The notes below the pieces were generated by a model. That model searched no databases. It had not been told where the DNA came from and saw only the letters and a program-made list of their open reading frames with translations. From Acinetobacter sp. WCHAc010034 (lineage in GTDB: Bacteria > Pseudomonadota > Gammaproteobacteria > Pseudomonadales > Moraxellaceae), in contig NZ_CP032279.1 of NCBI RefSeq assembly GCF_001696615.3, forward strand, positions 3,472,001-3,536,000: a stretch of 64,000 nt of DNA, read 5' to 3'. Both the position numbers and the translations under genes were made by a program. Each line of letters begins with the position of its first letter. Within the stretch, counting starts at the first letter, position 1. Positions 47,656 to 57,223 of the stretch are shown one piece after another.

Positions 47656-48027
47656 TTAGAATTGAATAAGACGCTGTGAGGATTGAACTGCATCAGCGAG
47701 TTCGCCTAAGCCGGCCAGTTCAAAGCCGGCAGCAAGGTTATGCTGCTTCAGCTGGTGGCGCTGAGCATTTTCTTTATCTGTAATTCCCCGCGCCAATGCT
47801 GCGCTGACACATACCGGCAGCCGAAGCGCAAGCTTCTGCCATTCTGCAGTGAGCTTGCGCTGATCATCCGGCACCCATTGCAGAGCATTGGCAACAGCCA
47901 CAGCGTCTTGATAAAAGAATACACAGAAGTCTTCACTTTTCTGCTGCAAGGCTTGGGCAAGGCCCAGCGCATGCCAGGCATGAATGGAGGTCGGCGCGGA
48001 GGTAATCAGTAATAAAGTGCTCATCAA
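47656..48027 (-). CDS. tusD: Sulfurtransferase TusD (DsrE family)
   Basis: The 123-residue catalytic subunit of TusBCD. The active Cys lies in LRLPVCVSAALARG at about residue 73. The N-terminus TLLLITSAPTSIHAWHALGLAQAL matches the family. It is the first gene of the tusDCBE operon. The second ATG codon (48024) is an equally good start. Confidence 0.9.
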   Translation of the reverse strand: MMSTLLLITSAPTSIHAWHALGLAQALQQKSEDFCVFFYQDAVAVANALQWVPDDQRKLTAEWQKLALRLPVCVSAALARGITDKENAQRHQLKQHNLAAGFELAGLGELADAVQSSQRLIQF

Positions 48028-48117
48028 AATTCACTGCAGGAACAGGCAGCGGCGTGCTGCTTATCCGGACTTCATAAGAAAAAGGTAGTATACAATGATT
48101 TTAGGTGGTATCTAAAG

Positions 48118-48145
48118 AATTCAACAACGCATGTTGAATTTTTTG
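48118..48145 (+). terminator. Hairpin upstream of the tus operon
   Basis: A perfect 9-bp repeat AATTCAACA/TGTTGAATT with a 5-base loop is followed by TTTTTGT. No plus-strand gene ends here, so it may be a remnant of displaced DNA at the border with the accessory region. The rest of 48028-48293 is AT-rich and shows nothing else. Confidence 0.5.
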
Positions 48146-48293
48146 TATAAATAGATATTTAAAAACAATATCTTATTTATTGTTTGATGTTTTAAAAGTA
48201 TTAGAAGCCTTCTTTTATCCGCATAAAATTCCCCGTATTTCCGTTCCTTTTATTGCGTTATCGATAGAATAAAAGGCAATCTGGCCCAACAAA

Positions 48294-48596
48294 ATGAAGC
48301 TGCCAAAACCAATACAACGCGGGTCAAGTTGGCGTATCATTGTCACCTTTGAAAATAAGCGATACTCAGCCACCAGAGATACTGCCAAGGAATGCGAGCA
48401 CTGGTCATCAATCAAATTACTAGAACTTAAAACAGGTAAGGCTAATCTAGAGCAAGGTATAAAGCCAGCTTATCCATTTCGTCAATTATGCGATAAGTAT
48501 TATCAAGAATATGCTCGGCATATAAGATCTGCTTTATTGCTGTGCATCCTGCTTTCAGGCTGCACAGCATATTCTATGTTAATATCCAGTCTGTAA
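48294..48596 (+). pseudogene. 5' fragment of a phage-type integrase fused to foreign sequence
   Basis: The first 72 codons read as the arm-binding N-terminus of a tyrosine integrase: MKLPKPIQRGSSWRIIVTFE, KRYSATRDTAKECEHWSSIKLLELKTGKA, YPFRQLCDKYYQEYA. From about codon 73 the sequence changes to RHIRSALLLCILLSGCTAY, which resembles the lipoprotein start of a phage Rz1-like spanin or other small lipoprotein, and soon stops. The catalytic domain is gone. I read it as a recombination or deletion junction left by a former element, not a working gene. Confidence 0.65.
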
Positions 48597-48669
48597 TGGT
48601 CAAAACTATTACAGATTAGACATTTTATTGGTGAAAATACAAACACTTTAATTGGGTTCTAATAGTTGC

Positions 48670-48697
48670 ATTTCGTATAACCTCCATTATGTTAAAT
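48670..48697 (+). other. dif-like XerC/XerD site 1
   Basis: The XerC half is ATTTCGTATAA (48670-48680), the spacer CCTCCA, and the XerD half TTATGTTAAAT (48687-48697). Both arms match those of Acinetobacter plasmid dif sites; the XerC half is identical to the form I know. Orientation is XerC to XerD on the plus strand. Confidence 0.8.
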
Positions 48698-48754
48698 AAA
48701 TATAAAATAAGATATTCTTTTGGTCTCTTTTTAAAATTAAAGAATATCTAATAA

Positions 48755-49279
48755 ATGAAATTTTTTATTCAAATTATTCTGGCGATGTACTTATTTCTAA
48801 ACTTACAGAATGTATTTGCAGAACAATGTCCAAAAGACGATGAAAATAGAACAGCAGAAATTATTGATGGTGTAATAAAACTAGATTTAAAACTGACAAA
48901 AGAATGTGCAGAAAAGGGAAATATTCGTGCACAAAAAGATTTAGGAATCGCCTATGCATCAGGACGATTTGGAATCGCTCAAGATTTAGATGAAGCATTA
49001 AAATGGGAAATAAAAGCTGCGTTACAAGGAGATCCCGAAGCACAATATGATGTTGGGCTATCTTACTCAGTAAGAGATGACTATAAAAAAGCAATGGAGT
49101 GGTACTTAAAAGCTTCTGAGCAAAATTATGCTGAAGCACAGCTCCATATAGGAATGTTATATGCGTACGGAAATGGGGTTCCTCGTGATGTAGATAAGGC
49201 TATATATTGGTATAGAAAGGCTGCTACAAATGGGAACATTTCGGCTCAGATGGTTATAGCTAATATTGATGAAAAGTAA
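48755..49279 (+). CDS. Secreted Sel1-repeat protein inside the dif module
   Basis: The 174-residue protein has a signal peptide (cleavage near NVFA/EQ, residue 22). The mature part has three to four Sel1 units: AQKDLGIAYASGRFGIAQDL, AQYDVGLSYSVRDDY, AQLHIGMLYAYGNGVPRDV, with AIYWYRKAATNGN at the end. It is periplasmic by inference. It is the only gene between dif-like sites 1 and 2, and is not closely similar to the larger Sel1 lipoprotein at 36083. Confidence 0.85.
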   Translation: MKFFIQIILAMYLFLNLQNVFAEQCPKDDENRTAEIIDGVIKLDLKLTKECAEKGNIRAQKDLGIAYASGRFGIAQDLDEALKWEIKAALQGDPEAQYDVGLSYSVRDDYKKAMEWYLKASEQNYAEAQLHIGMLYAYGNGVPRDVDKAIYWYRKAATNGNISAQMVIANIDEK

Positions 49280-49344
49280 ATTAGTTACAGCGTACTAAAT
49301 TACGCTTTTTTTAAACTTTTAGATTAATTACTTAGTTTTCCTAA

Positions 49345-49372
49345 AATTAACATAATACCGATTATGCGCAAT
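49345..49372 (-). other. dif-like XerC/XerD site 2
   Basis: On the minus strand: XerC half ATTGCGCATAA, spacer TCGGTA, XerD half TTATGTTAATT. The XerD half is the Acinetobacter type, while the XerC half is closer to the GCGCATAA of E. coli dif. It is opposite in orientation to site 1 and the same as site 3. Confidence 0.75.
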
Positions 49373-49413
49373 CTATTTTTATTTCAATATAAATCATTAG
49401 TTTAAAAGTTAAG

Positions 49414-49446
49414 AAAAAGCCTAGTCCTAACCGGTTGGGCTTTTTT
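49414..49446 (+). terminator. Hairpin at the module border, copy A
   Basis: AAAAAGCC and GGCTTTTT (49438-49445) form a stem 42 bases after dif-like site 2. The same position after site 3 also holds a hairpin (55545-55576), with different sequence. Confidence 0.6.
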
Positions 49447-49450
49447 AATG

Positions 49451-49485
49451 ATTTTTCACATTCCACGCCCACTATTCAAGCAATG
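49451..49485. repeat. Border repeat, copy A
   Basis: This stretch matches 55581-55613 at about 27 of 33 positions with one gap (shared core TTTTTCAC, TTC, ACG, CACTATTCA, GCAAT). It lies 79 bases beyond dif-like site 2, the same distance copy B lies beyond site 3, and covers the end of the broken gene at 49472-49638. Confidence 0.7.
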
Positions 49486-49638
49486 TTTCACTACTTGGAT
49501 TAACTTTCCGTATAGATTCCAGTCCAGCATTAAAATTTTTTACTTTGATTGCCTTTACATAGGTCCAGTCAGGCTCTTTGCTGGCCACATGAGCCGCGCT
49601 TAGTAAATTCAATATAAGAAGTAAAGCCAAGTTTTCAT
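49472..49638 (-). pseudogene. Frameshifted small secreted-protein gene
   Basis: The minus strand from the ATG at 49638 starts MKT and then stops, but losing one base after the third codon puts the reading frame into TLALLLILNLLSAAHVAS, a perfect signal peptide, followed by KEPDWTYVKAIKVKNF and NAGLESIRKVNPSSETLLE and a stop at 49472. The span is 167 bases, one short of a 55-residue gene. I read it as a small secreted protein inactivated by a single-base deletion, though a TTG start inside could rescue it. Confidence 0.55.
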
Positions 49639-49768
49639 TGTTGTATTAACCTTGTTTTAGACGTTTAGTTTTTATCATAGCTAATCTATACAAAGCCATC
49701 GGTTGAGGACTTTGTTAAATATTCTATTGTGTATTTTTAGTTCTATGGTGATTTCATAGTATTTCGGA

Positions 49769-50182
49769 TTAATCGGAGTAAAAATCACCTTCAGCGTATT
49801 CATAAGATCTTCTGCTTGAATCTACAGCAGGGTCGGGCTTCATGTTCTTCATATATTCAATAGACTCTCTGGTTTCATCTGAGTTAATAAAGTCAGCTAA
49901 GTCATTTAAATCTTTTCTAATTTCAGCTTCAGAAACGGGTCGAGTATTATATTGTTGTCTTGACGGCTGAAATTGGCGTTGTGTCTGTATTGCGCGTTGT
50001 TGGCGTTCAAGTTGACGCTGAGCTTGAATTTCTCTTTCTCTCTGATTTTGTAAACGCTGTTGGTCCACAAAGCGTTGAGACATTCGATGTCCCTCGCTAG
50101 CTGCATCATATGCAAAAGCGGCTGTTACTGGTGTTAAAAGCAGACTGGAAAGTACAATTTTACTTAAAAGTTTTTTAATCAT
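49769..50182 (-). CDS. Gln/Arg-rich secreted protein
   Basis: This encodes 137 residues with a signal peptide cleaved near residue 24 (AAFA/YDA). The mature part has a long, low-complexity helix of Gln and Arg (QREREIQAQRQLERQQ, about 45-75), likely a coiled coil, followed by an acidic tail. No family is recognised. AT-rich and beside the dif-like sites, it is probably accessory DNA. The 508-base gap 50183-50690 follows. Confidence 0.65.
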   Translation of the reverse strand: MIKKLLSKIVLSSLLLTPVTAAFAYDAASEGHRMSQRFVDQQRLQNQREREIQAQRQLERQQRAIQTQRQFQPSRQQYNTRPVSEAEIRKDLNDLADFINSDETRESIEYMKNMKPDPAVDSSRRSYEYAEGDFYSD

Positions 50183-50439
50183 TTATTTATCACTTTTGTT
50201 TGTGGTTGATAAAGTTAAATCATTATAAATAATATGAAAAATAATAAAAGCTCATTCAAATTTCGAATGGTAAGCATCTTATCCCGAAAGGGCGGTTTTT
50301 TTAAGGCAAAGAAGTATAAATTTTGAACGTCATTGATTGATTCAAAAAATTGCGCCTGTTTTTACACCTTGGATGAAATTTTATTATTATAAATAATTGT
50401 TTTATTTATCTATTTATGGGTTAGTGGAACCACTTCAGC

Positions 50440-50600
50440 CCGGCTAATCTGTTACAGCACCTAAGTTTCTATTTCTTGTCATAAACAATATACAGTTCAT
50501 AGCTATAACTGCAACACACGCAAGATTCCGAACCTATAAGATGATGATATAATGCTCTTGCAGATTAGCCGGCCCAAGAGAATTTTTGAGTCGGTTTTTT
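50440..50600 (+). ncRNA. Possible small RNA or processed leader upstream of the galE-like gene
   Basis: A TATAAT (50548-50553) lies just before a 12-bp perfect inverted repeat whose other copy is at 50440-50451 (right copy 50561-50572). The right copy continues into a terminator-like stem (50569-50594) and six T residues. A transcript from about 50560 would be only 40 nt, while one covering the whole stretch would fold into a 160-nt hairpin. Existence of an RNA is inference from structure; it may be just a terminator for upstream read-through. Confidence 0.3.
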
Positions 50601-50690
50601 GTTTTCAACATCTGTAGATAAGTTATTGGAAACACCAAAATTACACCAATAAATCGCAAGATACTGATTATTATAAGGAGTATCTATACA

Positions 50691-51698
50691 ATGATTTTAG
50701 TGACTGGTGGATTAGGCTTTATAGGCTCGCATACTGCTTTAAGTCTTTTAGCGCAGGGACAAGAAGTCATTATTGTTGATAATTTGTCCAATGCAGGCCT
50801 GCAGGTATTGGAACGCCTTGAATATATTTCCGGCATGTATGTGCCCTTTATTAAGCTGGACATCCGTAATACTCCGGCGCTGAATAAAGTGTTTGAGCAG
50901 TATTCCGTCAGTGCGGTGGTGCATGCGGCGGGCTTTAAGTCTTTAGAAGAATCTGTGCTGAAGCCGCTGGAATACTACAATGACAATGTCAGCTGCATTA
51001 TGAGCCTGCTGCGCTCCATGCAAAGAACCGGCGTTCGAACGCTGGTGCATCTTTCAAGTCTGGCGGTGTACGGCAAATCGTCCGCAGAATTGAAGGAAGA
51101 TACGCCGTTTAACTATGCTTACCCCAACCCCTATGTAAAATCGCAGCAGATGATTGAGGAAATCATCCGCGATACCGCGCATACCGACAGCGAATGGAAA
51201 ATTGCGATCCTGCGTTTAGGCAATATTGCCGGCGCATTTGAGCATGGTGTGCTGGGGGAATTCATCACGCCGCTGCCGAAAAATATTGTGCCGCTGGCTA
51301 TGCAGGCCGGCGCGATGCAGCGCGAGTTCATTGAACTGCGCCGGCAGGCCAATACTGAAAATAAGACCGCGGAACGCAGTTTTCTGCATGTGCTGGACTG
51401 CTGCCAAGCCATTATGCTGACGCTGCATTGGCTCAGCAGGCAGATGCATGTATGTGAAGCATTCAATATAGCGGGGGAGCTGATTTCAATTCAAAAACTA
51501 TTGGATCAGGTTTCAGAAGTCACCGGCAGCGAAATTAAAACTGTGGATGCCGGTTATTATTCAAATGCGGAGTTTGACCAGCTGGGGGCCAGCACAGAAA
51601 AGGCGCAGGAAATTTTAAAATGGAAAGCCGAAAACAGCCTGAAAAAAATGCTGGAAGATGAGTGGCGCTTCTATCAGCTGACCTTGCGGGGGCAATAG
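50691..51698 (+). CDS. GalE-like NAD-dependent epimerase lacking the active-site Lys
   Basis: This is a 335-residue extended short-chain dehydrogenase. The Rossmann motif TGGLGFIGSHTAL (residues 5-17), VHAAGFKSLEESV and HLSSLAVYGKS follow UDP-glucose 4-epimerase. The catalytic YxxxK of GalE (YGKSK) is replaced by YVKSQ, so Tyr is kept and Lys is Gln. The nearby Ser of the triad remains. Without the Lys, hydride transfer would be slow, so the protein may have another role or be a degenerate paralogue. AAGGAG lies 8 bases before the ATG. Confidence 0.85.
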   Translation: MILVTGGLGFIGSHTALSLLAQGQEVIIVDNLSNAGLQVLERLEYISGMYVPFIKLDIRNTPALNKVFEQYSVSAVVHAAGFKSLEESVLKPLEYYNDNVSCIMSLLRSMQRTGVRTLVHLSSLAVYGKSSAELKEDTPFNYAYPNPYVKSQQMIEEIIRDTAHTDSEWKIAILRLGNIAGAFEHGVLGEFITPLPKNIVPLAMQAGAMQREFIELRRQANTENKTAERSFLHVLDCCQAIMLTLHWLSRQMHVCEAFNIAGELISIQKLLDQVSEVTGSEIKTVDAGYYSNAEFDQLGASTEKAQEILKWKAENSLKKMLEDEWRFYQLTLRGQ

Positions 51699-51947
51699 CA
51701 GGCCTGTGATGTTCGCAGCCGTAAACTTTGCCGGCTCATATCCTGAGTTTCAGCTCAGCTTTAAATGCGCATGCCTAATGCATGCATTGCCTGCGCGCAT
51801 ATTCCTAAACGGCTTTCTGCATGCGCCTTGAAAAATTCCGGATGCGGCAATGCTGTTTAGGCTTGCATATCCGCCCAAACCCGCCAAAATAGAATAAGCA
51901 GCTGAATACAGATGCTGAAGCATGGCATCTCAATAAGTAATTAAATA

Positions 51948-51968
51948 TTGAAAACAATTATCATTTAC
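51948..51968 (+). promoter_or_regulatory. Candidate Fur box upstream of fumC
   Basis: TTGAAAACAATTATCATTTA resembles the Fur consensus, with its right half (AATTATCATT) fitting best. Class II fumarase is iron-independent and is commonly induced when iron is low, so Fur control is plausible. The rest of the 370-base gap 51699-52068 shows no gene. Confidence 0.4.
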
Positions 51969-52068
51969 AAATATTTCAATCTTGCATAAACTGCTGGAAA
52001 TAGCCATAGCACGCTGTTTTTGCTAGAGCCAAGGTCTTTAACCTTTAACAAGGAAATGAGGTTTGAAC

Positions 52069-53463
52069 ATGCAAACACGTATTGAACACGACACTATGGG
52101 TGAGGTGGAAGTGCCAAGTGAAGCAATGTGGGGCGCGCAGACGCAGCGCAGCCTGCAGAACTTTAAAATTGGCGGTGAACGCCTGCCGCGCCCAATGATT
52201 CGGGCAATGGGGCTGGTGAAAAAGGCCGCCGCCATGACCAATGCAGAATTGAATCAAATTCCTCAAGAGCTGTCGCAGTATATTGTCGGCGCAGCTGAAG
52301 AAGTGATTGCCGGCGATTGGGACGCGCAATTTCCGCTGGTGGTCTGGCAGACCGGTTCCGGCACGCAAAGCAATATGAACTGCAACGAAGTCATTGCCAA
52401 TATCGCCAATCATAAGCTGGGCAATGCTTTAGGCGCGCAAAAGCCGGTGCATCCGAATGATCACGTCAACCGCGCGCAGTCTACTAATGACTCATTTCCA
52501 ACCGCAATTCATGTGGCGGCCAGCCTGCAAATCAATGAGCTGCTGATTCCGGCTGTCACCGCTTTGCGCGATACTTTGGCGGCCAAATCCAAAGAATTCT
52601 CCGACATTGTCAAAATCGGCCGAACCCATTTGCAGGACGCGACGCCTTTAACTTTGGGGCAGGAATTCAGCGGCTATGTTTCGCAGCTGGATCATGGCCT
52701 GAAGCGCCTGCAGCAGGCGCTTTCCGGACTGTATGAACTGCCTTTGGGCGGCACTGCAGTCGGCACTGGCTTAAATGCGCACCCTGACTATGCTGTGAAA
52801 GCGGCAGAGCAATTGGCTGAACTGACGGGCTTGCCTTTTGTTACTGCGCCAAACAAATTTGAAGCGCTGGCAGGGCGCGATGCGGCGGTATTTGCTTCCG
52901 GCGCATTGAAAACTTTGGCGGCCAGCCTGAATAAAATCGCCAATGATATCCGCTGGCTGGCCAGTGGCCCGCGTTGCGGTTTTGGCGAACTGCGCATTCC
53001 TGAAAATGAGCCGGGTTCCAGCATTATGCCAGGCAAGGTCAATCCGACGCAAAGCGAAGCCATGACCATGGTTGTGGCGCAGGTGATGGGCAATGACACG
53101 ACCATCAATATTGCCGGCGCATCAGGCAACTTTGAGCTGAACGTGTTTATGCCGGTGATTGCCTACAATCTGCTGCAGTCAATTCAGCTGCTGGGCGACG
53201 CATGCAACAGCTTCAATGAGCACTGCGCTGCCGGCATTGAGCCGAACCGTGAAAAAATTGACCACTTCCTGCATGACTCACTCATGCTGGTCACGGCTTT
53301 GAACCCTGTCATAGGCTATGAAAATGCCGCCAAGGTGGCAAAAACCGCCTATAAAGAAGGCAAAACCTTAAAGCGCGTGGCGGTTGAGCTTGGGCTGGTG
53401 ACTGAACAGCAGTTTGATGATGTGGTGCGTCCTGAACAGATGGTTTCTCCGAACGCTAAATAA
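52069..53463 (+). CDS. fumC: Class II fumarate hydratase
   Basis: The 464-residue iron-independent fumarase interconverts fumarate and malate in the TCA cycle. The start at 52069 ([18 protein letters not shown]) is preferred; a TTG two codons earlier is in frame. Signature [16 protein letters not shown] with its flexible catalytic-Ser loop, [16 protein letters not shown] and the catalytic-His segment [22 protein letters not shown] (here [12 protein letters not shown]) are intact. It is a core gene standing between the accessory dif-like sites. Confidence 0.96.
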
Positions 53464-53578
53464 GCGCTATAAGGAGCTGTGCAAGAAGGCCAATCCGCAT
53501 TGAAAAAGGGCCGGCTTGACCTTGTACAGGGCGTACTTTTGCTGTTGTGGATGAACAAGTTATAATAATTCAATAAGA

Positions 53579-53605
53579 TAAACCCCGCATTTGCGGGGTT
53601 TTGTT
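53579..53605 (+). terminator. Terminator of fumC
   Basis: AACCCCGC/GCGGGGTT stem with ATTT loop, followed by TTGTTTTT, 118 bases after the fumC stop. Confidence 0.85.
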
Positions 53606-53637
53606 TTTATCTATATTGGCTATAGGTTATAAAAATA

Positions 53638-54001
53638 ATGTTTTCAGCTGAACCAGTCACAAAACGTAATGGTAAATGCTTAGAATTAATACAAAATAAG
53701 TTGGATAAAGTGCAGATTTGCTCAAGTGAATGGTGGCAAGGGCTTTAACGATACTTTTAGTTTGTATAAATTGAAAGACAAAGCATTTTTAATTCGTCAA
53801 GAAAAGGGCGAAGATAGAACTTCTTTTATGAGTGATCTTCAAGGGTGTAATGAAATAAAAGTTGAGCGTGTTAATCGTTATTTAGATATATTGCAGGAAA
53901 TCAAAGACCTTAATTCTATTAGCGGGCAGACAGGGTTCTGTTATACAGCTATAAATGAACAGAATGGACTTTGTGTATTGCCAATCAAAGTGTCTATTTA
54001 A
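53638..54001 (+). pseudogene. Probably frameshifted small gene
   Basis: An ATG at 53638 opens a frame reading MFSAEPVTKRNGKCLELIQNK that stops at 53748. A second frame, one base over, starts near 53720 and reads NGGKGFNDTFSLYKLKDKAFL and on to VLPIKVSI at 54001. Joined, they give about 120 residues without signal peptide. The rightward part alone (91 residues) could be real. No family recognised. The following gap 54002-54319 contains scraps such as KAANADLNAGLA but no gene. Confidence 0.4.
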
Positions 54002-54319
54002 TACGAATAACTTATCGAAAGATGATTTTTTATTGCCTGCAGAAAGCCAATTTGCAGAACATGCCTTCGAATAAAGCAAATAAAGTAGGGTTTGGCATCT
54101 TGCACTAAAAGGAATGAAAGCCGCTAACGCTGACTTGAATGCTGGGTTGGCGTGATTATGAGTAGCCGTAGCTATGATTATTTTGCTGATTTTATTGGAA
54201 AATAGCTTGATGGCGACATAATATGACGTTTATGTGGGTTTTGGTTGGTTCTTACCCAGATATAATGTTGTTTTTATTATAAATTATTAGAAATATAGTT
54301 ACTTTTTAGAAAGCTTATC

Positions 54320-55456
54320 ATGAATACATATGCATCTTTATTACAACTCATAACTGATTTCGAGAAATTGCAGGTAGGCCAAACGCTCCCTATAAAAGAA
54401 ATTGAAAGTAATTTTATCGAAGCAATGAATGATAATATGATTTCGAATTATCAAGAAATTCTATCTAGATACAGTGAGATAGATGAAAAAACTATTGTTG
54501 GTTTTGATCAAAATACCATTTTAGCTTTTTTAACTTCAGTTATTCGTATGGATCGTTTTATAGAGGGTACGCTTTCTCATAGTCTTCGTTCAGGATTAGT
54601 TCTAAAAGCACTAGAAAAGCTAGCTGTATGCGTAAATGCTGAGCATAAAGTCATGTTAAATGACATTTTGCAAATTAGAAATTTGGATAATGTCAAAATC
54701 AGACTTAACGTCATGTTTGGTGGGAATTGGAATCCAATAGAAGTATTCAAAGATGGGAATATAGATGAAATTCTTAAAGGACATTATTGGAACTATAGCT
54801 CCAAAAAATCGTATAAAGACGGTCAAACCACTATAGGGTTAATTAGAATAAAACCAAATGAAGATTTATGGTTATTGATTCATGTAGGAAAGATCACCAA
54901 GGATTTAAATAAATTTAATGATGTTGGCTATGAGTTTAAAGTTTTAGAGCAATACCGTAAATATTTTGGGCGAATTATTGTTAAGTATAAAAACTCATCG
55001 CAGGCTTTAATTCGTAAGGCAGATACTATAATTAATGATTGTGAAGTCCATCAAATTCTTCCTGATATTTTTGATAACGATATTTTTCCAGGATATGAAA
55101 GTGTGAATGTGTCATGGCAAGAGCTAATACGAGTAATTAATAAAGAGTCTTGGAAAACTGCATTACAAAATCAAAAGGCTGTATATTTAATCACTGATAT
55201 CTCTAATGGGAAAAAGTATGTTGGTTCCGCATATGCAGAAAATATGCTGCTAAACAGATGGCAAAGCTATGTAAAAAGTAGACATGGCGGTAATGTTCAA
55301 TTAAAGCAACTTTCAAAAGAGCATATTGAAATTAACTTTAGATATTCAATATTGGATATTTTTAAATCGACAACAGATGATAAGGTTATATTAAGTAGAG
55401 AAAGTTGGTGGAAAGATACATTGCTAACTAGAAAATTTGGTTACAATTCAAACTAA
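54320..55456 (+). CDS. GIY-YIG nuclease domain protein
   Basis: This encodes 378 AT-rich residues. The C-terminal 90 residues form a GIY-YIG nuclease: AVYLITDISNGKKYVGSAY with the two-strand core, the Arg in LLNRWQSYVKSRHG, and the metal-binding Glu in SRESWWKDTLL. The first 280 residues are unrecognised; they include FLTSVIRMDRFIEGTL and a strand-rich middle. It lies just before dif-like site 3. Such nucleases occur in restriction, homing and mobile-element genes; its role is not known. A DNA-defence role is possible. Confidence 0.8.
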   Translation: MNTYASLLQLITDFEKLQVGQTLPIKEIESNFIEAMNDNMISNYQEILSRYSEIDEKTIVGFDQNTILAFLTSVIRMDRFIEGTLSHSLRSGLVLKALEKLAVCVNAEHKVMLNDILQIRNLDNVKIRLNVMFGGNWNPIEVFKDGNIDEILKGHYWNYSSKKSYKDGQTTIGLIRIKPNEDLWLLIHVGKITKDLNKFNDVGYEFKVLEQYRKYFGRIIVKYKNSSQALIRKADTIINDCEVHQILPDIFDNDIFPGYESVNVSWQELIRVINKESWKTALQNQKAVYLITDISNGKKYVGSAYAENMLLNRWQSYVKSRHGGNVQLKQLSKEHIEINFRYSILDIFKSTTDDKVILSRESWWKDTLLTRKFGYNSN

Positions 55457-55474
55457 TGGCTTTAAGTCACTTAA

Positions 55475-55502
55475 AATTAACATAATAGGCGTTATACGAA
55501 AT
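55475..55502 (-). other. dif-like XerC/XerD site 3
   Basis: On the minus strand: XerC half ATTTCGTATAA, spacer CGCCTA, XerD half TTATGTTAATT. Both arms are identical to the typical Acinetobacter dif-module arms; only the spacer is its own. Same orientation as site 2. Confidence 0.8.
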
Positions 55503-55544
55503 TCTGTATAATTTATTTTATAAATAAAAGTTATGGTTTCTAGA

Positions 55545-55576
55545 ATATAGCCCAATCTTCTAAGATTAGGCTATAT
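55545..55576. terminator. Hairpin at the module border, copy B
   Basis: ATATAGCC/GGCTATAT extended by AATCTT/AAGATT around a short loop, 42 bases beyond dif-like site 3, the same spacing as copy A beyond site 2. Confidence 0.6.
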
Positions 55577-55580
55577 TATA

Positions 55581-55613
55581 GTTTTTCACGTTCTACGTTC
55601 ACTATTCAGCAAT
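55581..55613. repeat. Border repeat, copy B
   Basis: Diverged copy of 49451-49485. On its right the similarity ends. The remaining 55614-56098 contains no gene I can support; it is AT-rich towards the integrase, and should contain the prophage left attachment site, which I cannot identify without the right end. Confidence 0.65.
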
Positions 55614-56098
55614 CAAACGGTTATTAACTGCGCCGCAGCTAACCGGAGCTGCTCAGGAACTGTACGGTAGGCTATGCAAAACCGGCACAAGCTGCAGATG
55701 GACATGTCATTGCTGTTGAGTGATTAAGTGAGTGATGATCCTTACCGCCGTAATTTTAAATGCCCTGATTGGCATTGAATAAACCGTCAAAATTGTTAAA
55801 ATGCCTTTCTTTTTCTGTTTTATCCTTATTTTGCATTTGTTTTGCAGGCATGGGAATAGGACGGTAGAAAACAGAATTTTATTTAAAGGTTTTTTCAATG
55901 TTCAATATTTATTTAATATATATTGAAAATTGAAATAACTAACTGATTTATATAAAATAAATAGAATAAAAACGCCGTAAAATACGGTAAAATTGGTGCA
56001 TTTGGTAATTATGTAAAACAATAACTTAGCATATAGTTTTGATAGGTGTTTTTCTGTCAGTAGGGTCAAAAAAGCCACTTAAGTAAGTGGCTCTTAAA

Positions 56099-57223
56099 TC
56101 AGCTATCTTTAAATGGTAAATTAATCCCAATATCTGCATCATTCCAAATAATTTCATGTCCAGATGCATACATTTCGGTCATCTTCTCAGTTGCATGCCC
56201 AGCTAAGGTTTGCGCTGATCTACCTGCTTTTTTATGCAAGTGAATCGACAGTGCGCGAATTTCATGAAAGCTTGGCAATTGACGACCTTTCAATTCAGGA
56301 TATACACCCGATCTCTGGCCTGCTTTCAAAAATTCACGCGACACATACTGTGCTTCAAGCTGTGTCCAATGCTCTTTGGTTTGCCCCTTATTTTTCGTTT
56401 TACCTTTAGGCACACGATGGATAATAAAAGGACTAATCACATCATCTTTGCATCGGTCTAAAACCTTCTGCAATTCATCATTGATCTTGATACGCACATA
56501 GCCAGCACCCTCCAATAATTCAAATTCATCATCAGGATCATCTGTGGTTTTTTCCTGCGCTACATGCAAATAGCCATCTTTAATATCTGACCACTTCATA
56601 TTAATGATATCGACTCGTCGCTGGGTTGTGAGCATTGCTAGGTCAATCGCATTTTTCAACCATTGAGGCGATGCGTCACGAATCATTGCCAAGCTTTCCA
56701 GTGTATGTCGTTTACGTTGCTTGATTCTGAAACGCTTAATGGTTTGTGCTGCAGGATTCTCAGTGGCTAAACCTTTGCTGATTGCAAGGTCGAAGATTTG
56801 AATCAGCAAACTGCGTGTTTCAATACTGGTTGACGCAGGCAAGCTCTCAAGCAATTTATTCGTCATAAACAGGGTAATGGATGATAGTGGCTTATCATTC
56901 CACTCCGCACAGCGATTAAGGCTGTGTGTATAAGTTCGAATAGAGTTGGGAGCCAGTGGACGACCATCTTTCCTGCGCTTTTCAGACAAGAATTTTTGAG
57001 AGAATTCACCAAACGTTACCTCACCCATGACAACAGATACGAGATCCGTTGTTGGTGCAAGGATGTCATTTAACTTACGTGCTGCAGCAACCGCTTTTGC
57101 TTTATCGGCGCCCATGGCATGCCATGTACCAGTAACAGGGTGTCTGTACTTCCACGTGTTTACACCGTTTCGGTACAGATTTGACGGCAAGTCTTTATTT
57201 CTCTTAACGCGAGGCCGTGACAT
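56099..57223 (-). CDS. int: Phage tyrosine integrase
   Basis: The 374-residue integrase has an N-terminal arm-type DNA-binding domain (about 1-60), a core-binding domain (about 65-165, FSQKFLSEKRRKDGRPLAPNSIRTY) and a catalytic domain. Catalytic residues visible are the first Arg in LTTQRRVDIINMKW, His-x-x-Arg in FHEIRALSIH, His in LAGHATEKM and the Tyr nucleophile in TEMYASGHE. Complete, so probably active. It starts 3 bases after the excisionase-like gene. Confidence 0.93.
   Translation of the reverse strand: MSRPRVKRNKDLPSNLYRNGVNTWKYRHPVTGTWHAMGADKAKAVAAARKLNDILAPTTDLVSVVMGEVTFGEFSQKFLSEKRRKDGRPLAPNSIRTYTHSLNRCAEWNDKPLSSITLFMTNKLLESLPASTSIETRSLLIQIFDLAISKGLATENPAAQTIKRFRIKQRKRHTLESLAMIRDASPQWLKNAIDLAMLTTQRRVDIINMKWSDIKDGYLHVAQEKTTDDPDDEFELLEGAGYVRIKINDELQKVLDRCKDDVISPFIIHRVPKGKTKNKGQTKEHWTQLEAQYVSREFLKAGQRSGVYPELKGRQLPSFHEIRALSIHLHKKAGRSAQTLAGHATEKMTEMYASGHEIIWNDADIGINLPFKDS

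Follow-up and report, generated by a model that had tools for sequence, protein, structure and literature searches.

Described dif modules and the locus under study

In Acinetobacter, resistance, toxin-antitoxin and other genes are carried by dif modules, and sel1 is named as one of the module genes in the available part of PMC13141974 (this source, PMC6449649, PMC12907356, PMC10132070 and PMC11705084 are all cited for the portions of their text at hand). Inversions and losses involve identical or nearly identical spacers, and the plasmid protein OrfX may take part in module movement (PMC13141974). The pdif sites form two clusters (PMC6449649), and XerC/XerD recombine such sites between plasmids with closely related spacers, mostly under the control of FtsK (PMC11705084). 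Chromosomal dif modules are already known: some chromosomes have over ten sites (PMC12907356, PMC6449649), and an OXA-58 dif module is mentioned in a prophage of a Proteus mirabilis chromosome (PMC6449649). In the literature searched, which included few subscription journals, no report of an Acinetobacter prophage niche, of chromosomal swaps, of cassette exchange or of an accessory element was found. The locus under study, which bears on how modules enter and leave chromosomes, is a sel1 module at positions 48670-49372 of a 64,000-nucleotide stretch of Acinetobacter sp. WCHAc010034 (the window; C13:3472001-3536000), where C13 is a 3.63-Mb contig with dnaA at 1941408 that was treated as a circular chromosome. 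On the sequence comparisons below, this segment is a D module, probably seated on a docking platform whose cargo is replaced as a unit by Xer cassette exchange.

The sel1 module lies between two Xer sites of different spacer class

The sites and the enclosed gene are:

48670..48697, plus strand: site 1, XerC/XerD site, ATTTCGTATAA-CCTCCA-TTATGTTAAAT, one mismatch, CCA class
48755..49279, plus strand: sel1, cargo of the D module, 174 aa (PF08238, E 9.7e-24)
49345..49372, minus strand: site 2, XerC/XerD site, ATTGCGCATAA-TCGGTA-TTATGTTAATT, two mismatches, GTA class
55475..55502, minus strand: site 3, XerC/XerD site, ATTTCGTATAA-CGCCTA-TTATGTTAATT, no mismatches, GTA type, partner not found

The original prediction had placed three dif-like sites here with these spacers and orientations and had read sites 1 and 2 as a module inverted around one gene, and all of this was recovered. 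The sites are of the Acinetobacter Xer type, and no 28-bp site arose in 100 dinucleotide shuffles of the window. The genome-wide search for the 28-base pattern that had been proposed found 55 places with at most three mismatches, 21 on C13 (the dnaA contig) and 34 on contigs C2 and C4-C11, and none with the backward control. Sites of the GTA class combine a spacer ending in GTA (or similar) with the XerD arm TTATGTTAATT and an additional conserved extension resembling TTTTAGAAAA, those of the CCA class have a spacer ending in CCA and the arm TTATGTTAAAT, and ATT is the third class. Sites 1 and 2 form an inverted pair with the XerD arms inward and sel1 as the one gene enclosed, which is the arrangement of a D module.

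The same module was found elsewhere with breakpoints at its sites. A. tianfuensis L121 carries a sel1 module at 87-88% DNA identity; the match begins exactly at 48670, and the left flank there belongs to another site. In L122, a 1.4-Mb Acinetobacter contig, the match stops at 49372, the last base of site 2, and a decayed site is present there. The two closest sel1 relatives are from Acinetobacter, as are all 221 plasmid records that match the sel1 stretch. Left of the module lies a composite segment:

48529..48664, plus strand: phage right-end segment, then the left end of an IS1202-type (ISAjo2-like) insertion sequence (IS), with the IS end 5 bp from site 1

Its phage part is 91% identical to the right end of a neighbouring prophage (prophage 2; C13:3563302-3563487). 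The same IS end adjoins a 444-aa transposase in L121 and L058, and in L121 it adjoins a site different from site 1. The spacing at site 1 follows the 5-bp rule given for IS1202-type IS near an XerC arm (PMC10132070), and the IS end is degenerate.

Spacer classes were compared between loci. At 20 chromosomal loci from 12 other genomes an XerD-inward pair was present in 20 of 20, a figure that describes loci with pairs because they were hand-picked from listed chromosomal sites, mostly paired; adjacent pairs comprised 22 D, two C and five direct arrangements. The 22 D pairs from other species were GTA/CCA in 21 cases and ATT/GTA in one, and all six D pairs of the own genome were CCA/GTA (at most three mismatches). 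Different classes were hence joined in 28 of 28 chromosomal or prophage D pairs (27 CCA/GTA, one ATT/GTA; at most three mismatches). Over all sources the proportion was 60 of 64, the others being three GCTCTA/GGTGTA pairs and one viral pair with GCTCTA twice. As far as sequence can tell, the two-class rule in the 28 pairs suits two-site cassette exchange by XerC/XerD.

Cargo differs within conserved flanks and is shared across replicon types

L244 (G145) and L245 (G116) are one chromosomal locus, one flank being 97.6% identical over 4050 bp and the other 94.0% over 4332 bp. In L244 the flank matches stop 4 bp short of one site and start again 2 bp past the other, and the cargos of L244 and L245 are unrelated. 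Because the cargo differs between flanks that are 94-98% identical, its replacement appears to be recent. At the pyrE locus (L246 versus L256), both flanks are 78-80% identical near the sites and the content between them differs.

Moreover, a comparison of 64 D-module cargos from all sources found like cargo on different replicons. Plasmid C7 of this strain and the chromosome of G116 are 93.0% identical over 657 bp, the match beginning 2 bp inside one site and stopping where the other ends. Between plasmid C11 and the own chromosome the match is exactly the module (86.0% over 1353 bp), and plasmid C8 and the own chromosome have a module plus 125-160 bp on each side in common. The chromosome of G011 and the viral contig L219 share cargo at 92.7% over 614 bp. 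By comparison, differing cargo within conserved flanks and cargo shared across replicon types were both seen, which suggests that cassettes are replaced at these sites and are common to plasmids, chromosomes and phages.

A beta-lactamase-family gene (PF00144) was also observed as chromosomal D-module cargo (L056 7148-8488; C13:212147-213487), and modules 85-87% identical to this one occur on two plasmids of the same strain (L067, L070).

The module lies in a prophage remnant at galE

The surroundings of the module contain the following features:

48089..48104, plus strand: attL core TATACAATGATTTTAG of prophage remnant 1 (present twice in the window without mismatch, none in shuffles)
48294..48533, plus strand: N-terminal integrase fragment (about 80 aa), fused to the phage right-end segment; the DNA match ends at 48533
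49769..50182, minus strand: 137-aa open reading frame (ORF) in the insert, no Pfam match
50478..50684, plus strand: right end of prophage remnant 1, matched by viral contig L179 beside attP at 85% (213 bp)
50685..50700, plus strand: attR core of prophage remnant 1, second copy of TATACAATGATTTTAG, at the galE start

In several relatives tusD abuts galE directly (attB), and 2.6 kb lie between the two genes here; the comparison with relatives that had been proposed for 48670-49372 revealed that the whole insert is missing where tusD abuts galE. The viral contig L179 has one copy of TATACAATGATTTTAG, with the equivalent of window 50478-50690 on one side and of 48089-48121 plus 48221-48533 on the other, and a complete 339-aa integrase ORF follows the match to 48533. 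Since both remnant ends adjoin this copy and a complete integrase ORF comes next, it was assigned as attP. A repeat at attL and attR, an attB in relatives that are empty here, an attP in a phage contig and a truncated integrase beside attL are what an integrated temperate phage would leave, and the insert was identified as a prophage remnant because all four att sites were seen by comparison. The integrase breaks off after about 80 residues at 48533, and phage right-end sequence starts at 48529. Its residues 1-80 are 85-88% identical at the amino acid level in 14 of 19 viral-contig matches and 66-73% identical in the other five. The 137-aa ORF has no match in the sister phage stretch L179.

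A second module in the neighbouring prophage, and modules in viral contigs

Right of fumC, a second prophage enters the window:

55892..55916, plus strand: attL core TTTTCAATGTTCAATATTTATTTAA of prophage 2, identical 25-bp cores read by eye, attR at C13:3564589-3564613 outside the window
56099..57223, minus strand: integrase of prophage 2 (PF00589, PF09003)

Prophage 2 spans 36.7 kb, from 55892 to C13:3564613. By reading the DNA, its target gene was seen uninterrupted in G009 (empty), and a similar integrase follows fumC in G002. Its right end consists of a muramidase gene (PF11860), a CCA site, a 121-aa gene, a GTA site, a conserved element on the XerC side and attR. The arms of this module match the window arms (95.5% over 134 bp, and 88% over 136 bp including the site), and its cargo, the 121-aa gene, differs from the window cargo. 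A same-family muramidase plus arm lies at C13:63.7-64.4 kb, and a fragment of both at C13:215.4-216.0 kb.

IMG/VR was scanned with the exact pattern and phage genes were annotated with PHROGs; the viral contigs are predictions whose borders may include host DNA. Only part of the 39 stretches found bears on modules, since 29 have a single site and 11 carry the main-dif spacer TGTATA. Nine D pairs were present (two after joining adjacent pieces), three of them beside lysis genes. In L219 the order is tail gene, holin, endolysin, spanin, module and integrase-like gene; the module of L211/L225 is beside an endolysin, and that of L203/L229, the exception with spacer GCTCTA on both sides, is beside an endolysin and a spanin-like gene. 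L214 has a tail gene nearby and L231 a portal gene. There is good comparative evidence that prophages may act as module carriers.

Prophages as the general home of chromosomal modules were also considered, and this idea found no support: the flanks of the 20 loci in other species, judged by eye from the first 75 residues of each gene, are mostly housekeeping-like, and L252 has an adjacent integrase-like gene. In 20 control regions, checked for sites only, none was reported.

Two further observations concern phage DNA. An inverted duplication of 3.4 kb with 97.7% identity (L061/L062; C13:3540158-3543563 and 690055-693460) has one copy inside prophage 2. L230, part of a 45-kb uncultivated viral genome (UViG), combines phage-like replication genes with an OrfX-type gene, the XerC-side element and a Sel1-type D module, and is possibly a phage-plasmid or a cointegrate.

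A conserved element on the XerC side of GTA-type sites

Two copies of the element lie in the window:

49373..49505, minus strand: XerC-side element beside site 2, with box GTGGAATGTGAA (49455-49466) 82 bp away from this site
55503..55613, minus strand: diverged XerC-side element beside site 3, with box GTAGAACGTGAA (55585-55596) 82 bp away from this site

GTA-type sites often carry such a conserved XerC-side element of about 130 bp. Among 57 own sites, flanks were similar in 124 of 1596 pairs on the XerC side versus 16 of 1596 on the XerD side. Across 21 non-redundant copies, two GTGGAAC-type boxes were recognized in the element, together with an AT-rich block and a terminator-like hairpin region whose sequence varies; conservation tails off at a distance of about 130-140 bp. 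An exact search covering 175 genomes of the genus found the element in 61 (control 0). Total length was 123 in 95 of 117 copies (105-134 allowed); by coordinate, this length was found in 86 of 98 copies up to 30 kb and in 4 of 10 above 100 kb. A box-to-site distance of 83 bp was found in 31 of 32 copies on plasmids and in 7 of 16 on chromosomes (Fisher 6e-5, hand-picked rows); the plasmid rows are 24 hand-picked of the 117 (off the dnaA contig, in assemblies of few contigs) plus 8 own plasmid copies, and the 3.17-Mb contig G078:C1 (length 116) stands outside the chromosomal sample. The constant length is not mere identity, because median identity between copies in the 83-bp gap is 0.61. Since the box spacing is near-constant on plasmids, the element may be an accessory sequence; common descent of plasmid backbones could be a simpler reason for part of the conservation and of the constant spacing.

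The gene adjoining the element encodes one helix-turn-helix (HTH) protein family in 15 of 35 copies. This family is taken to be OrfX, and PLSDB labels such genes as plasmid replication DNA-binding protein. A 175-bp query of element plus site matched 1693 PLSDB plasmid records, 1022 of them over at least 80% of the query. In the available part of PMC11705084, no accessory elements were found on the plasmids tested. In an Rfam search of 48000-56100 nothing reached the gathering score, and the XerC-side elements are not covered by any of the six matches listed. As an observation apart, 480 of the 1693 matching records are non-Acinetobacter (Klebsiella, Escherichia and others); the six such rows listed align at 83.6% to a stretch of 61 bp in the XerC-side element, the site not included.

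Site 3 and the main chromosomal dif

Site 3 has one neighbouring gene of interest:

54320..55456, plus strand: DUF6508/GIY-YIG gene beside site 3, 77% match including the site to A. baumannii plasmid pAbNCIMB8209_134

The site on this plasmid was already noted in PMC9947245. By this likeness, the gene is probably the remains of a second dif module, and site 3 is most likely its one-ended remnant. Left of the GIY-YIG gene, the closest match to a partner site differs at 8 positions, which is also the most frequent number in shuffled sequence. Sites 2 and 3 are separated by host DNA that includes fumC; it lies between two insertions and is no module. The original prediction had treated it as a set of core genes among the sites.

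That prediction had also suggested that one of the three sites is the true chromosome dif, which captured modules. This is highly improbable. The best main dif candidate is likely C13:85566 (ATTTCGTATAA-TATATA-TTATGTTAAAT), at 0.978 of the half-chromosome from dnaA; the window sites lie about 195 kb from it, have module-type spacers and do not fit. The usual main-dif spacer in Acinetobacter is TGTATA according to one paper, and many relatives have it as well. Among the stretches sampled, GC skew was positive in all that run from 2.64 Mb to 82-89 kb, whereas the stretches at 205-696 kb had negative skew. Because it is weakly positive on both sides of C13:85566 (+0.023, +0.027), with no switch at that base, the switch is placed somewhere between 89 and 205 kb. 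The absence of a switch at the candidate itself and the perfectly matching arms of site 3 would speak for a dif in the window; they are outweighed by a candidate that lies nearly opposite dnaA, has a dif-type spacer and is flanked by stretches of opposite skew, and by a window in which skew is positive in 28 of 32 bins. The motif GGGNAGGG, resembling an FtsK-orienting polar sequence (KOPS), occurs too rarely for use.

Chromosomal sites had further been called unusual, which does not hold: they are described in the available parts of PMC6449649 and PMC12907356, and extra sites were counted in 18 of 26 other chromosomes. Overall, the Xer sites and the dif module of the original prediction stand and its main dif and the rarity of chromosomal modules do not, while the home within a prophage remnant, the second module in the neighbouring prophage and the conserved XerC-side flanks go beyond it.

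Clustering of extra loci at the terminus was rejected as a general rule, since 45 loci in 26 other chromosomes do not depart from a uniform distribution (Kolmogorov-Smirnov (KS) p 0.36); these are 26 of 40 other genomes, 14 being omitted for an incomplete position listing or no chromosome length. In this genome, for which sites were defined somewhat more loosely, 7 of the 8 extra chromosomal loci fall within 0.18 half-chromosome of C13:85566 (KS p 2e-4).

Some observations on sites and neighbouring DNA stand by themselves. C13:3521345 (window 49345, spacer TCGGTA) and C13:68824 share identical 28 bp in inverse orientation, as do C13:3395506 and C13:3563443 (CGCCCA); because two chromosomal pairs are identical and inversely oriented, inversion of segments of about 170-180 kb by Xer recombination is possible. 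In G137:C1, two main-dif-type sites (TGTATA) lie 7 kb apart on one chromosome, at 1431975 and 1439005. Window 54036-54187 matches the Rfam Pseudomonadales-1 RNA below its gathering score (48 of 68 bits, E 6e-9), and similar DNA is found at C13:3541083 and 692362.

Proposed cassette exchange and alternative explanations

In the proposed mechanism, the starting point is one gene between two inverted XerC/XerD sites of different spacer class. Because the classes differ, the pair would be stable against each other, and each site would be open to a matching site elsewhere. The incoming cassette would carry the same two spacer classes, and two-site, cassette-exchange-like recombination by the host XerC/XerD, probably via a cointegrate, would exchange the cargo as a unit and leave the outer arms in place as docking platform. 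Here the platform would occupy the lysis/att end of a temperate phage which integrated at galE and of which little else is now left. We infer XerCD catalysis at these copies, import of the module by a phage and an accessory role of the element. The locus is a dif module in unusual surroundings, and comparison gives good evidence for cassette replacement in chromosomes.

The locus could instead be a passive relic, in which pieces of Rep_3/OrfX plasmids and a phage were joined by homologous or illegitimate recombination, the sites are dead, and breakpoints coincide because modules end there. The integrase truncated at 48533, the degenerate IS end, the partnerless site 3 and the drifted spacing of the element on chromosomes, where 7 of 16 copies show the 83 bp that 31 of 32 plasmid copies have, agree with such a relic. 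We nevertheless consider it unlikely, since sites 1 and 3 have kept their arms, and site 2 its conserved extension, with little or no damage, and the unlike cargo within near-identical flanks at L244/L245 points to a recent replacement. Some Acinetobacter strains are naturally transformable, and cargo might have been replaced by transformation and homologous recombination in the flanks, without Xer, as the near-identity of the L244/L245 flanks would allow. This is less probable still: the same cargo occurs in unrelated surroundings with the match confined to the module (C7/G116, C11/own chromosome), which flank homology cannot explain, and the match in L121 starts at site 1.

Several points weigh against exchange of cargo at this platform by Xer recombination. 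The support is comparative throughout, and no recombination event was seen. This copy may be inert, given the two mismatches in the arms of site 2 and the broken integrase. Among 72,556 plasmid records, no match covers 80% of the sel1 stretch. The swap in L245 is not bounded by the sites alone, since an IS1202-type IS lies between flank and site on both sides, and the stretch replaced at the pyrE locus of L256 contains an additional ATT-class site. A whole platform could also be moved by homologous recombination in its flanks. Neither a site nor a module is present in the 4.2 kb examined of L179, which is the closest phage sharing this att site, and phage carriage is one route only, because most of the 20 loci, judged by eye, lie between housekeeping genes. 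Finally, PMC11705084, in the part available, saw no deletion within a plasmid, even for a direct repeat with equal spacer; intramolecular activity of such sites was therefore weak in its assay.

With cassette exchange retained as the preferred explanation of the sel1 locus, a wider proposal can be put forward tentatively, as possible rather than probable: Acinetobacter chromosomes and temperate phages would carry standing two-site Xer docking platforms, a natural recombinase-mediated cassette exchange by the host dimer resolvase, with phages as one vehicle and the XerC-side element, perhaps bound by OrfX, marking and controlling the GTA-type site. If true, a fixed platform with two incompatible spacers would explain how modules stay put yet are cleanly replaced, exchange partners would become predictable from six bases, and prophages would join plasmids as carriers. 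The fixed-distance element would then be a concrete target for what controls Xer at plasmid sites that lack a known accessory sequence.

Comparison with known systems

In the plasmid dimer resolution sites cer and psi, the core site is accompanied on its XerC side by a conserved block some 100-200 bp long. The element described here resembles them in being a conserved XerC-side block at a fixed distance (length 123 in 95 of 117 copies); cer and psi have binding sites for ArgR, PepA or ArcA, whereas the likeness here is one of block position and spacing only.

With the modules of Rep_3/OrfX plasmids (PMC13141974, as far as available) the locus shares 28-bp sites, inverted pairs, the D configuration and small cargo; it differs in that the sel1 module is located in a chromosomal prophage remnant, without plasmid backbone genes. 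ISAjo2-type IS of the IS1202 family (PMC10132070, in part) are matched by an end 5 bp from the XerC arm of site 1, of which the window keeps the left end only. Extra chromosomal sites and modules common with plasmids are shared with the chromosomal dif modules of PMC12907356 and PMC6449649. Whereas resistance-gene arrays or single modules are described in the available parts of those two sources, the present analysis adds a prophage platform in Acinetobacter, a swap of cargo between homologous loci of other chromosomes and an XerC-side element.

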